Notes under the pieces: model-generated
Database searches by the model: none
Seen by the model: the letters and a program-made list of their open reading frames with translations, nothing else
Told to the model about the DNA's origin: nothing
Shown: positions 4,155-43,765 of the stretch, in pieces
How positions within the stretch are numbered: position 1 is the first letter of the stretch
Layout: each line of letters begins with the position of its first letter
NCBI GenBank assembly: GCA_903904605.1
Contig: CAIVDC010000076.1
Span: 1-64,000, forward strand
Source: an uncultured Sterolibacterium sp.
Lineage (GTDB): Bacteria; Pseudomonadota; Gammaproteobacteria; Burkholderiales; Rhodocyclaceae
Length of the DNA stretch: 64,000 bases
Reading direction: 5' to 3'
Program-made: the position numbers and the translations under genes

Positions 4155-5155
4155 CCGGGTCTCCTTCGGCAGCAGGCATGGAAGCCCCGCTCCGCCAGGC
4201 TCAAGACTCCGCCGCGGGCGAACAGCACCAGGATCAGCAGAATGATTCCTTGCCAAAGAAACCAGTTTGTCGGATCGCGCTTCGCGAGATAGTCCTGGGC
4301 GAACATGTAGATCGGCACACCGAACATCGCTCCGTAAAGACGTCCCGAACCTCCCAGGATAAGCATGATCAGCACGGCACCCGAAAGCTCGAAACTCAGC
4401 GAGTTGAGCGCCACGAACCCCGTGCATTGAGCCTGCACCGCGCCGGCCAGGCCGGCCAGCGTCGAGGCGATGGTATAGGCGGTCAAACGGCGCCGGTAGT
4501 TGTGGCAGCCGATCGCGGACATGCGCAGATCGTTTTCGCGAAGTCCGCGCAGCGACCAGCCAAATGGCGAGTTGACCACCCGCCGCAAGAAAATGAAGGT
4601 GAGAAAAAGCATGACGAAGCTGTAGAAGAACGCAGTCGTGCCTCGGAAGTCGAACTCCCAGAGGCCCAGCAGGGGCGAAAAAACCACGCCCTGAAGGCCG
4701 TCGTCGCCGCCGGTGATGCCGGTCGCCTTGTTGGCGATTTCGTAGAGGAACATTCCCGACGCGACGGAAAGCATCAGAAAGGCGAGCCCCTTGGTTCGCA
4801 GCATCAAGGAGCCGAAGAACAGGCCGATGCAGCCCGCTGCAACCATGGCGATAACGGCGGTCATGGTCGGGTCCGTGATCCACCCCCTCGCGGCGAGGAT
4901 GCCCGCCACGTAAGCGCCGGTACCGAACTGTGCGGCATGCCCGAGAGTGACGATTCCCGTATAGCCCACGAGCAGATCCAGGGACATGGCGAACAGGATC
5001 ATCACGAAGATCTGCGTCAGAAGGGGGGCATACTGAGGCGCGGCAGCATAGGTTCCGAGCGCCAGGAGCCACGGAACAGCTTCCAGCCACCTCTTTGACG
5101 CAGGAATTGCCGGCATTCCCTTGCCCGGCAAAGCCGTATCGGTCGGACGGGTCAT
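4151..5155 (-). CDS. livM: Branched-chain amino acid-type ABC transporter permease
   Basis: Polytopic; LDLLVGYTGIVTLGHAAQFGTGAY motif. Confidence 0.88.
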   Translation of the reverse strand: MTRPTDTALPGKGMPAIPASKRWLEAVPWLLALGTYAAAPQYAPLLTQIFVMILFAMSLDLLVGYTGIVTLGHAAQFGTGAYVAGILAARGWITDPTMTAVIAMVAAGCIGLFFGSLMLRTKGLAFLMLSVASGMFLYEIANKATGITGGDDGLQGVVFSPLLGLWEFDFRGTTAFFYSFVMLFLTFIFLRRVVNSPFGWSLRGLRENDLRMSAIGCHNYRRRLTAYTIASTLAGLAGAVQAQCTGFVALNSLSFELSGAVLIMLILGGSGRLYGAMFGVPIYMFAQDYLAKRDPTNWFLWQGIILLILVLFARGGVLSLAERGFHACCRRRPG

Positions 5156-29767: not shown

Positions 29768-30694
29768 TCAATCCCGAAGAGAAAATTCGTCGCCGGGCCC
29801 AAGGCTGAAGCCGCGCAGGAACTCGTCGGCGCTCAAGCGCCTGCTTCCGGGCTTCTGCAATTCGACGAGGCGGAGAGCCCCTTCGCCGCAGGCAACGACG
29901 ATGCCGCTCGGGTCAGCCGAGAGCACCTTGCCCGGCCTGCCGCAGCCCGCAGTCGCTTCTGCCCGCCAGATCTTGAGAAGTGCGGCACGGATCGCCGCCG
30001 TCGCCACCGGAAACGGATTGAAGGCGCGCACCTGGCGCTCCAGTTCCGGCGCCGGCCTCTTCCAGTCGAGCATCGCCTCGGCCCGGTCGATCTTGGCGGC
30101 GTAGGTCGCGCCCTCGTCCGGCTGGGCGACCGGCGGCAAGTCGTCCAGCCGCCCCAGCGCCTCGACGATCAGCTCGGCGCCGAGTCCGGCGAGCTTGTCA
30201 TGAAGCGTGGCGGCAGTATCGGCCGGGGCGATTGCGATCGCCCGCTGCAACAGCATCGCTCCGGTGTCGAGTCCCGCCTCCATCTTCATGATGGTGACTC
30301 CCGTCTGCCGGTCGCCGGCCAATATCGCCCGCTGAATCGGGGCGGCACCGCGCCAGCGTGGCAGCAGCGAGGCGTGGATATTGATGCAGCCCAAGCGCGG
30401 CAGGTCGAGGACCGCCTGGGGCAGAATCAGGCCATAGGCCGCCACCACCATGACCTCGGCCGCCGCCGCGCGTATCGCTTCATGGCTGGCGGCTTCCTTC
30501 AGTCCCGCCGGTTGATAGAGCGGCAGGCCGTGGCTTTCGGCGAGTTGCTTCACGGCGCTGGCGTGGAGCTTCATGCCGCGGCCGGACGGCCGGTCGGGCT
30601 GGGTGAGGACAAAGGCTACGTGGTGCCCGGCGGCAAGAATGGCAGCGAGCGCTGTTGCGGCAAACGCCGGCGTGCCGGCGAAGATGATTTTCAA
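29768..30694 (-). CDS. fmt: Methionyl-tRNA formyltransferase (TTG start)
   Basis: [30 protein letters not shown]; 4-nt overlap with def. Confidence 0.94.
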
Positions 30695-39614: not shown

Positions 39615-40145
39615 CTACGACTTCGCACCAAAGCGACGAGCGATCAGGTGATCCAGCGACAATCGCCCTGGCCCCCTGGCGACCAGCATGAGGAGAACGG
39701 TCGCCCAGACGCCGTGGGTCGGATAGGCATCGGGATAGACGAAGATCTCTATGATCAGGGTCATGACCAGCAGGGCGACAGCGGAAAAGCGCGTGGCCAG
39801 CCCGACCAGGATCAACAGCGGAAAGAGATGCTCGGCGAAGGCCGCCAGCGGCGCCGCCAGTTCAGGCGATATGAACGGCAGGCGGTATTCCTCGCGAAAG
39901 AGATCGGTGGCGGAATCGGAAAGCCGCGGCATCCCGAATTGAAACGTGCCGCTGACAATGTCGAGGGCGAAACCCTGGATCTTGGTCTCGCCGGATTTCC
40001 AGAAGACCGCCGCGATGGAAAACCGGCCAAGCAATGCGGTCACGGAATCCGGGATGCGGGAAAAAATGGCGACCAGTCTCCGGATCGGCTTCTCCGGCCA
40101 AGAGACGAGGCGGGAAGCCGGCGCGGCTGCGGGCGATTCGTTCAA
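39615..40145 (-). CDS. DoxX-family membrane protein (TTG start)
   Basis: LLGRFSIAAVFWKSGETKIQGFALD..., DoxX TM pattern; 4-nt overlap with upstream DUF2063 gene. Confidence 0.85.
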   Translation of the reverse strand: MNESPAAAPASRLVSWPEKPIRRLVAIFSRIPDSVTALLGRFSIAAVFWKSGETKIQGFALDIVSGTFQFGMPRLSDSATDLFREEYRLPFISPELAAPLAAFAEHLFPLLILVGLATRFSAVALLVMTLIIEIFVYPDAYPTHGVWATVLLMLVARGPGRLSLDHLIARRFGAKS

Positions 40146-40927
40146 GAGGGGATACTCCCTGCAATAGTGGCGCTTGTTATGGCGCCGCTGCGGATCAGCA
40201 GACCCAGGGCGGCGGCCAGATCGAACGCGGCGTCGCCGGCCGAGGCCAGTCCGGCGGCCGGTCCGAAGGCGATGCCTTGCCGCAGATTCATGATGAACAA
40301 GGCCGAACCTTCCGGGACGAGAAAAACTTCCACGTCGAGCCCCGAGCGCAACACCAGCGCCGCTTCGCGCGAATCGGGAACAACTGCCGCCAGTGCCGCA
40401 GAAACACTTTCGGCTTGATGCGCCGCCCACAGGGAAACCAGCGCATGGCGGGAGCGCACAAGCGCGAGCGACGGATGCAAGTCGAAACAGACTTGCGGCA
40501 GGCGTCCCTCATCGGCCAAGAGCCGCGAGATTTCCCCGCTATCGAGCGGTGTCGCATCCTCGGCATGATAGGCACGCACGCGCAGCATTTCCAGCCGCGC
40601 CACGTCGGCGAGATAGGGCAGCGAAGCCGCCGGCGTAAAGGCTTCTATGAAATCCGCCAAGCCGTCGCCGTAGAAGGAAAGAATTCGCGTGCGCGGCGGG
40701 TTTGTCCGCACGAACAGGCCTGCCATGGCGCGGAAGAATTCCTCGCCGACCAAGGCCTGGGTCACCGGGTAGGTTTCGGCCAACGCGTCGACCAGCGATG
40801 CGGCGACGTTGTTGCGATAGACGGCAAAGCGCCGGCCGGGATCAGATCCGTTCCATGCAGTCAGGCCCGGCGGGCATGTCGATTCCGCCGCGAGCAAAGC
40901 GTCGGCAAAGGCCTGGTGATCGCTCAT
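40142..40927 (-). CDS. bufC: DUF2063 / HvfC-BufC-like RiPP-modification partner protein
   Basis: FADALLAAE...[37 protein letters not shown]. Confidence 0.88.
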
Positions 40928-41829
40928 GTGCGCAGCGCGAGGGAGGGCCGGACGAGGTCGCGCATCATCCGCTCCGCCCGATGTGCTTCGGCGAGCAGGA
41001 CGGGAAAGGCCGGGATGTCGTTATCGCGTTCGATCAGGGTCGGCACCGGACCGACGCGTTCCAGCGCATAAGCGTAGAGATCCCAGACAACCTGCGCCAC
41101 CGCCGCGCCGTGGCTGTCGATGAGGAGCGAATCGCCGGCTGCGTCGACGTCGTGGGCAAACCCCGCGAGATGAATTTCCGCAACGTGCTGAAGCGGCAGC
41201 GCGCGGATGTAGTCGTAAGGATCGCGGCCATGATTGACGCAGGAAACGTAGACGTTATTGACATCGAGCAGCAGTCCGCAGCCGGTGCGCCGGACAAGCT
41301 CGGCGATGAACTCCGCTTCGGCCATCGTCGAGGCGGAGAATTCGACGTAGGTCGCCGGATTCTCCAGCAGCATGCGGCGCTGCAGGCGATCCTGCACCTG
41401 GTCGATGTGCCCGCAGACACGGGCCAGGGTGCCGGCGTGATAGGGCACGGGCAGCAGGTCGTTGAGAAACACCCCGCCGTGGCTGGACCAGGCCAGGTGT
41501 TCGGAGAACGATTCGGGCTGGTAGCGCTTGAGCAGCCTGGAGAGCTGGGCAAGATGGTCCCGGTCGATCGGCGCTGCCCCGCCAATGGAAAGGCCGACGC
41601 CGTGCACGGAAAGGGGGTAGTGCTCACGGATGCGGCTCAGATAGTGATGAAAAGGACCCCCGTCCACCATATAGTTTTCGGCGTGGATTTCGAAGAAACC
41701 GACATCCGGGCGCGTCGCAAGGATCTCCTGGAAATGCTCAGGCTTGAGGCCTACTCCGCCGCTTGCGGGCAAGCGACGGGGGGAGGCGGCGCCGACAGCC
41801 ATCGGCACGGAAGGGAGTCGTGAGTTCAT
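40924..41829 (-). CDS. bufB: DUF692 MNIO (multinuclear non-heme iron-dependent oxidative enzyme), HvfB/BufB-like
   Basis: [13 protein letters not shown]...[10 protein letters not shown]...[11 protein letters not shown]...EHLAWS...[11 protein letters not shown]...[14 protein letters not shown]...EIHLAGF. Confidence 0.92.
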
Positions 41830-41859
41830 GGTCGGCGTCCCGGGTCTGCCGGCGGGCGA

Positions 41860-42162
41860 TCAGGCCTTCTTTTCCTTGAATTCCTGGAGCTGGCCGTAGC
41901 CTGTCGGCGACGTCGACGAAACGGTCTTCTCGCAAGTGCCCTTGGGCACCAGGGACCAGGCGTTGCCTTGGTGGTCCCTCATCGACGTGCCCGCGCAGCT
42001 TGTTCCGGCACCGGCCTTGCAGTCGTTCTTGCCCTTGAGGGCCACGCCATAGCAGTGCTCCTTGTCCGACATCTTGTTCTGGGCTGCGGCCGGGCTCGCG
42101 GCAACGGTCATGGCGGCACCGAGAGCCAGGGCGAGAGAGGCGGCGGTCAATGTCTTGTTCAT
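41860..42162 (-). CDS. bufA: DUF2282 bufferin/GigP-like RiPP precursor (Sec signal peptide, four Cys)
   Basis: [90 protein letters not shown]. Confidence 0.92.
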
Positions 42163-42244
42163 TTTGGATCTCCTTAACGCTGAATGGGCAGGTAACTTAG
42201 GTTTCGCCGCAGATACTCGAGGAATGTGAGCCTGCTGTAGCATT

Positions 42245-42270
42245 AGTCGGCGCCGCCGCGAATTTCTTAC
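42245..42270 (-). promoter_or_regulatory. Candidate ECF-type promoter for bufA
   Basis: Minus strand GTAAGA-N15-CGACT about 80 nt upstream of the bufA ATG. Confidence 0.35.
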
Positions 42271-42601
42271 ACGCCTCGGGCAATGATCACGGCTTCTGGG
42301 GAAGCCCAAGTGCCGGGCATGGAAGTCGGCGCCGTTTCCCGTAGCGCCGAAGGATGAGGCCGGAAGGGTCCGCCGGCGCACGGATCGCATCTGTGAATCA
42401 GCGATCGGGATGGGCGTTCCTGGGTTAGCATAGCGGGCCCGGATCGCCGACTCGATCCGCCGATGGCTGATGTCGTGAGTTCCGGCAAGCCGGTGGTGTT
42501 CCGGAGATCAGCATGGACCTGACCATCGCCAGCGGGTCGGCGGCGCAAATTTCGGCCGATGTTCCGTCGAACTGCGGGTACTTTTTTGAAAGGATGTGTA
42601 A

Positions 42602-43765
42602 ATGAAATGCGCATTGGTGGGATCCCGATTCTTCGCCGCCTCGGTGTTCGAGGCCTTGCGCAAGGAAGAAGGGATCGAGTTCACAAGCATCGTCGCTCCG
42701 GCCACGGATGATCGGCTGGCGCTGGCCGCGAGGGCGGCGGGCGTGGCATTGCATGTGCTCGAAAATCCAAGAGTCGTGCCCGGCAACGCGGTTGCCGAAG
42801 GCACTGATCTCATCATTGCCGCGCACACGCACGCGAGGGTGAGCAACGAGGCGCTGGCGCGCTCACGCCTGGGCGGCATCGGCTATCACCCATCGCTACT
42901 GCCCAGACACCGCGGCATTGCCGCGGTCGAATGGACAATCATGGAAGGCGATCCGATCGCCGGCGGCTCGGTATATCACCTGGCCGACGGCTGGGACGCG
43001 GGCGCCATCGCCGCTCAGGATTGGTGCTTCGTCCTCAAGGGCGAAACGGCGCGCGAGTTGTGGGAGCGCGCTCTGGCGCCGATGGGGCTTGCCCTCCTGG
43101 CCAAGGTCGTCCATAGCGCCCGACTGCAGGGAAGCATCCCCGCCTACCCGCAAGATCCCCGCTTCGCAACCAAGGCCCCGATGATCCGCAAGTCGGTCGT
43201 GCTGACCGAGGAGGTGTCTGCGACCACCACCTCCCTCGTCGTCACCATCGTCGGCGCCGACCGTCCCGGCATCGTCAACCTGCTGGCCGACCGGGCGCAG
43301 CGCTTCGGTGCCAACTGGGCGGCGAGCCGCATGACAAAGCTTGCCGGTGAATTTGCCGGCATGGTTCATTTCGAGGTGCCGCGCGAGAATGCCGATGCAC
43401 TGGCAACTGCGCTGCGCGGCATGGAGTCCAGCGGTCTGCAAGTGGTCATCGCCCGAAGCGACGGCGCCGAGCTGCCCTCGTCGCTTCGCGCGGTCGAACT
43501 GGAATTGGTCGGAGAGGACAGGGTCGGGATCGTCAGCAGCCTGACCAAGATGCTGGCGGAGCGCGGCATCAGCATCGAAAGTATTCACACCGAAATCGTC
43601 CGCAGCGGCGGGGTCGGCAAGCAGACTTTCAAGATCGAAGCGCACTTGCTGGTCCCTGCGGCCTTGTCCGTCGATGCGTTGCGGCGAGAGCTGGGCAGCT
43701 TGGCCAGCGAGATGATGGTCGACATCTCTTTGGGAGAGCGGCAGATGCCCGGCCGTTCGAGTTGA
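42602..43765 (+). CDS. Formyltransferase-fold domain followed by two ACT domains (10-formyl-THF hydrolase-like, GcvR-like C-terminus)
   Basis: GGIGYHPSLLPRHRGIAAVEWTIMEGD...DGWDAGAIAAQ; then LVVTIVGADRPGIVNLLADRA and LELVGEDRVGIVSSLTKMLAERGI. Confidence 0.82.
   Translation: MKCALVGSRFFAASVFEALRKEEGIEFTSIVAPATDDRLALAARAAGVALHVLENPRVVPGNAVAEGTDLIIAAHTHARVSNEALARSRLGGIGYHPSLLPRHRGIAAVEWTIMEGDPIAGGSVYHLADGWDAGAIAAQDWCFVLKGETARELWERALAPMGLALLAKVVHSARLQGSIPAYPQDPRFATKAPMIRKSVVLTEEVSATTTSLVVTIVGADRPGIVNLLADRAQRFGANWAASRMTKLAGEFAGMVHFEVPRENADALATALRGMESSGLQVVIARSDGAELPSSLRAVELELVGEDRVGIVSSLTKMLAERGISIESIHTEIVRSGGVGKQTFKIEAHLLVPAALSVDALRRELGSLASEMMVDISLGERQMPGRSS

Follow-up and report, generated by a model that had tools for sequence, protein, structure and literature searches.

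PurU-type enzymes are hydrolases, and in PurU (TIGR00655), the formyl-THF deformylase, an ACT domain and a formyltransferase-fold domain are carried in one chain. In the N-terminal hydrolase domain of 10-formyl-THF dehydrogenase (FDH), the residues His106, Ser108, Asp142 and Arg114 have been named as catalytic or important (PMC4388273, PMC6802093), and Phe89 is required for full activity of the zebrafish domain, the F89A substitution costing about 85% of the activity (PMC4388273). A domain of this fold can also feed other acceptors, as shown by HypX, for which formyl transfer to CoA has been proposed (PMC6802093). Here we describe a gene from an uncultured Sterolibacterium sp. (Rhodocyclaceae) in which a formyltransferase-fold (FT) domain is followed by two ACT domains. 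It lies in a stretch of 64,000 nucleotides (contig CAIVDC010000076.1, positions 1 to 64,000), which we refer to as the window. We found no literature on an FT-ACT-ACT fusion, a result that is provisional because most subscription journals lay outside the search.

The ORF list gives one intact gene of 387 codons, open from an ATG and running from 42602 to 43765 on the plus strand. The Pfam matches place the FT domain in residues 1-195 and the ACT domains in residues 208-380, so the original prediction that the domain order of PurU is inverted here holds. The gene is laid out as follows.

42602..43765, plus strand: FT-ACT-ACT fusion gene, 387 aa (single ORF, homologous loci, dN/dS)
42590..42594, plus strand: putative ribosome-binding site AAGGA, 7 bases 5' of the ATG (from the sequence)
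42602..43186, plus strand: FT domain, residues 1-195, of the phrog_9240-type subfamily, without a C-terminal OB-type domain
43187..43222, plus strand: variable linker, residues 196-207 (low pLDDT at 190-206; variability in the alignment)
43223..43471, plus strand: ACT domain 1 (ACT_6, GcvR-like), about residues 208-290, with a DRPGIV loop at 220-225
43472..43741, plus strand: ACT domain 2, about residues 291-380, with a DRVGIV loop at 306-311

The Formyl_trans_N match covers residues 65-159 (67.6 bits, cut-off 26.1), the ACT_6 match residues 212-281 (66.5 bits, gathering score 23) and the ACT_4/ACT match residues 298-364 (34.1/29.9 bits, cut-off 27). None of the NCBIfam equivalog cut-offs tested (fmt, GcvR, PurU) is reached by the protein, which scores 63.8 bits against a cut-off of 201.5 for Fmt (TIGR00460), whose N-x-H motif is absent (Gly94), 32.0 against 267 for GcvR and 12.3 against 285.95 for PurU. 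An AlphaFold model built with 30 orthologues (pLDDT 71, pTM 0.50) has an alpha/beta N-terminal domain, a low-confidence linker at about 190-206 and two units that are both predicted to have the beta-alpha-beta-beta-alpha-beta topology of ACT domains, as in ACT_6 double-ACT proteins; the model is only moderate, with pLDDT below 50 at residues 106-116. An antisense ORF at 42896-43645 on the minus strand was rejected as a mechanical shadow of the fusion gene, and comparable shadows occur in other loci.

By scanning about 85,000 species genomes we confirmed 202 relatives, the best 80 of which were analysed. In 78 of these 80 loci a single ORF covers at least 90% of the query, and with this many relatives the fusion is not a chance event. 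The best 80 loci are 55-89% identical and come nearly all from Burkholderiales or other betaproteobacteria, including Polaromonas, Herminiimonas, Noviherbaspirillum, Paraburkholderia, Caballeronia, Rubrivivax, Thiomonas and a few Rhodocyclaceae/Azoarcus bins. The spread is patchy, with the fusion in 3 of 150 genomes of one family and the full fusion in 2 of 250 genomes across the order, namely the window's own and one other. Against five orthologues dN/dS lies at 0.07-0.09 in the FT domain, 0.08-0.16 in ACT1 and 0.10-0.28 in ACT2, values which indicate that both halves are kept by purifying selection. That the fusion is real and conserved in many Burkholderiales is confirmed by these data.

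The FT domain matches phrog_9240 over its full length (residues 1-192 on 3-197 of 199, E 4e-44), far better than it matches any characterised family, and it carries the H-x-H loop and the GYH motif of that subfamily. Among 34 sequences of the wider FT subfamily H75, H77, G94 and H103 are invariant; rat FDH and the paralogues in this genome differ at the first three, and H103 is common only to FDH among them. Judged by profile and alignment, the FT domain belongs to a distinct uncharacterised subfamily (phrog_9240) with these four residues as its signature and with an invariant AH-x-H loop that is predicted to bind folate. The original prediction had judged the active-site loop closer to the hydrolase domain of FDH than to Fmt. 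That hydrolase domain is indeed the nearest solved structure (E 5e-21), and rat FDH is the nearest characterised branch in our trees, but the FT domain is not derived from FDH or PurU.

Residues 93-105 of the fusion protein read IGYHPSLLPRHRG and residues 129-134 read DGWDAG; the predicted active site comprises three features.

42818..42841, plus strand: AAHTHARV, residues 73-80, predicted folate-binding loop (alignment to FDH 83-90)
42881..42916, plus strand: GYHPSLLPRHRG, residues 94-105, with Gly94 at the Asn/Ile position, predicted catalytic H96, S98 and R104 (alignments; FDH His106/Ser108/Arg114)
42995..42997, plus strand: predicted catalytic Asp132, equivalent to FDH Asp142 (invariant in the alignment)

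H96, S98, D132 and Gly94 are invariant in an alignment of 81 sequences, in at least 95% of which R104 is conserved; in an alignment of 30 sequences R104 is invariant as well. The four residues H96/S98/D132/R104 align with FDH His106/Ser108/Asp142/Arg114, so the triad and the arginine of FDH all have equivalents here. The FDH likeness earlier claimed for the motif extends to these residues but not to the folate site, where Ile104 and Phe89 of FDH are replaced by Gly94 and Arg79 in the alignment. Gly94 sits where transferases have Asn, and the Fmt, PurN, PurU and ArnA-like paralogues of this genome all carry that Asn two residues ahead of the His. An Fmt-like paralogue (INIHASLLP) lies inside the window near 30083-30499. 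The loss of the Asn, with His and the Asp of DGWDAG kept, had thus been read correctly from the sequence, but it is no mark of a hydrolase, because PurU, a deformylase by family, keeps the Asn and reads INIHHSFLP in this genome.

A search for purU outside the locus, which had been suggested along with the original prediction, found a bona fide PurU elsewhere in this genome (343.9 bits, above the cut-off), and PurU is also present in 3 of 3 sampled fusion-bearing genomes of family f30. Since the fusion has both domain types of PurU, only in the opposite order, it might be taken for another enzyme of PurU type that stands in for PurU; we rejected this reading and consider it very improbable, as PurU co-occurs with the fusion and the score of the fusion falls far below the PurU cut-off.

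Most probably the protein acts on 10-formyl-THF and is controlled by an amino acid of the serine/glycine type. The reading that we tentatively prefer, with a probability a little short of even, is that the fusion is an amino-acid (Ser/Gly) regulated enzyme of the 10-formyl-THF deformylase type, acting alongside PurU and not in its place. The N-terminal domain would bind 10-formyl-THF, and the His96/Ser98/Asp132 triad would take off the formyl group to yield THF and formate, the acceptor being water or a small thiol. Sensing of an amino acid, presumably one of the serine/glycine family, would fall to the ACT pair at the C-terminus, which would tune deformylation so that free THF is matched to serine/glycine flux. 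Deformylation is favoured by the affinity to FDH and by a distribution in the style of general metabolism, and because no acceptor pathway is evident. The invariance of the triad and the conservation of Arg104 are also counted in its favour. GcvP is encoded on another contig of this genome and formate-THF ligase was not detected, an absence that is provisional because the assembly is 87% complete, so a deformylase would not oppose that ligase. Counted against this reading are the replacement of FDH Phe89, which belongs to the pterin loop, and of Ile104, the presence of PurU, the moderate AlphaFold model and the provisional nature of the missing ligase.

The C-terminal half proved to consist of two GcvR-like ACT domains, as had been predicted, both by Pfam (ACT_6 and ACT_4/ACT) and by fold. 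In Foldseek the model is best matched by the double-ACT structure 2nyi, by GcvR 1u8s, by the hydrolase domain of FDH (4qpd/1s3i/2cfi) and by the ACT portion of SerB2, a phosphoserine phosphatase for which one entry shows serine bound to the ACT domain. The proximity of the modelled ACT pair to 2nyi, GcvR and SerB2 would suit a regulated deformylase and is counted in its favour. The same GcvR likeness is what a sensor or regulator would have, in which formyl-folate bound to the FT domain serves as a signal, the ACT half senses glycine and the two jointly control the glycine cleavage genes, comparable to GcvR in E. coli; stand-alone ACT pairs in related genera also fit this idea. In all, the ACT half occurs alone, at 41-49% identity, in several genera. 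However, the complete catalytic triad and the block around it are invariant, which is more than sensing requires, and a pure sensor is therefore less likely. The score below the GcvR equivalog cut-off, the location of GcvP on another contig and the lack of a glycine riboswitch in the window also speak against it, and we regard such a role as improbable. No ZTP or other riboswitch lies 5' of the fusion gene in the window either.

In most of the best 80 loci there is no conserved operon around the fusion, as would be anticipated for an enzyme of general metabolism. In 23 of the 80, a gene for a serine-pyruvate/AGXT-type aminotransferase (best PDB match 3ke3, E 1.7e-139) directly adjoins the fusion in the same orientation, preceding it in 13 loci and following it in 10. 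The adjacency is kept while the order changes, which suggests a functional link, and we count this linkage in two opposite orders for the deformylase. Neighbouring genes were assigned with a simple ORF rule, which may pick antisense shadows, and the aminotransferase calls were corrected by tblastn. The aminotransferase of this genome (73-74% identity) lies elsewhere, at a contig edge. As a functional clue the neighbours in the window were uninformative, with DUF2282/MbnB-like genes divergent on the left and a PanE-like gene convergent on the right.

Several other features were observed near the fusion. The divergent genes of the window (39615-42390, minus strand) are DoxX-like, DUF2063, MbnB/TglH/ChrH-like (DUF692) and DUF2282 genes and resemble a 'bufferin'-like RiPP set; in loci L070, L096 and L109 a comparable cluster occurs no more than a few kb from the fusion. 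These three loci and L069 have, on the strand of the fusion and about 145 bp upstream of it, a zinc-dependent dehydrogenase-like gene that looks formaldehyde-dehydrogenase-like by eye. At L067 a tandem glycine riboswitch (4315-4607, minus strand) is found upstream of the fusion at a distance of about 1.4 kb, facing the neighbour on the other strand.

Relatives of the FT domain that lack the ACT pair occur in quite different surroundings. Stand-alone FT proteins of about 200 aa are encoded in phages and prophages directly 3' of an ABC-ATPase/GNAT gene (phrog_11143). A Pseudomonas phage has the FT gene in the corresponding place behind a gene of 374 codons, and in Gordonia phages ParB-like and ABC-like genes precede it. 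Plasmids of Azospirillum and Streptomyces carry a stand-alone FT gene next to NRPS/PKS-like genes, neighbours that were judged by eye from their translations. We also noted that the ABC-ATPase-GNAT fusion gene (phrog_11143) is followed by FT with a short overlap in L088-L092, L100, L107, L112 and L113, a pair that possibly forms a DNA- or nucleotide-modification operon; the phage FT proteins are annotated as phosphoribosylglycinamide formyltransferase or tRNA-methyltransferase. Unannotated FT genes of the subfamily are present at about 5926-6711 in L102 and about 5728-6483 in L103, on Azospirillum pAB510a and a Streptomyces plasmid.

A stand-alone FT protein of about 195-199 aa, 58-64% identical, is also found in 12 sampled genomes (L118-L125 among them) of one alphaproteobacterial-type family, the taxon being inferred, which belongs to the same phylum but another class. 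In our trees this protein joins the fused clade. One tree nests it within the fused sequences (support 97/87), but a second disagrees and groups the fused sequences to one side of a split (support 57/74). The simplest history is the fusion of two pre-existing genes, possibly with loss of the ACT domains afterwards in the alphaproteobacterial FT. Its existence implies that FT can act without ACT, that is, that the ACT pair is regulatory.

The phage operons and the NRPS/PKS clusters suit formyl transfer, and they are counted against a deformylase; in these settings hydrolysis is no likelier than formyl transfer. Because of these contexts, a serious rival is an amino-acid-regulated N-formyltransferase that uses 10-formyl-THF to formylate a small amine or an amino acid, which might be what the linked aminotransferase consumes or makes, with the ACT pair as feedback control. 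Enzymes of the FT fold are mostly transferases, which we likewise count for this explanation. It is weakened by the usual lack of an operon that would supply the acceptor, a lack seen also around the stand-alone copy in the 12 alphaproteobacterial-type genomes, and by the absence of the Asn that transferases use, so that we give it an appreciable probability, clearly below even. Less likely than not is the idea that the whole FT subfamily, biochemically undescribed and marked by Gly in place of the Asn and by a His-x-His folate loop, carries out one shared, new reaction of formyl transfer or removal, in phage operons (ABC-GNAT, ParB-like), in NRPS/PKS clusters and in amino-acid metabolism, where ACT control was gained.

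Should the fusion prove to be a second 10-formyl-THF deformylase under different regulation, then in many Burkholderiales a serine/glycine-type signal would govern how free THF is released, a route that current folate models lack. Should it be a transferase instead, its acceptor would also account for a gene family that phages and biosynthetic clusters carry and that now goes by the names 'phosphoribosylglycinamide formyltransferase' or 'tRNA-methyltransferase'. On either reading, a conserved fusion for which we found no literature becomes directly testable.

Among known systems, the fusion resembles the N-terminal hydrolase domain of FDH/ALDH1L1 (PDB 2bw0, 1s3i, 4qpd) in having the same fold, the motif YHPSLLPRHRG and the equivalents of the triad and Arg114; apart from the changes at Ile104 and Phe89, the fusion differs in having an ACT pair instead of the OB-type subdomain, the carrier and the aldehyde dehydrogenase domains. 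PurU differs from it in the order of the domains, in the number of ACT domains, of which the fusion has two, and in the motif, IGYHPSLLP in the fusion. The phage proteins of phrog_9240 ('cyanobacterial phosphoribosylglycinamide formyltransferase') share H75, H77, G94, H103 and the triad with the FT domain, but they stand alone 3' of an ABC-GNAT gene and read HRGRDA where the fusion reads HRGIAA. The alphaproteobacterial stand-alone FT has the same motif as the fusion and lacks the ACT domains. GcvR and the ACT_6 double-ACT proteins (1u8s, 2nyi) have tandem ACT domains with DRPGIV-type loops like those of the C-terminal half, to which the fusion adds an FT domain. HypX resembles the fusion in that an FDH-like formyl-folate domain at its N-terminus is joined to another module, but there the partner is enoyl-CoA hydratase-like and the catalytic residues are His74/Asp80/Asp109 (PMC6802093).
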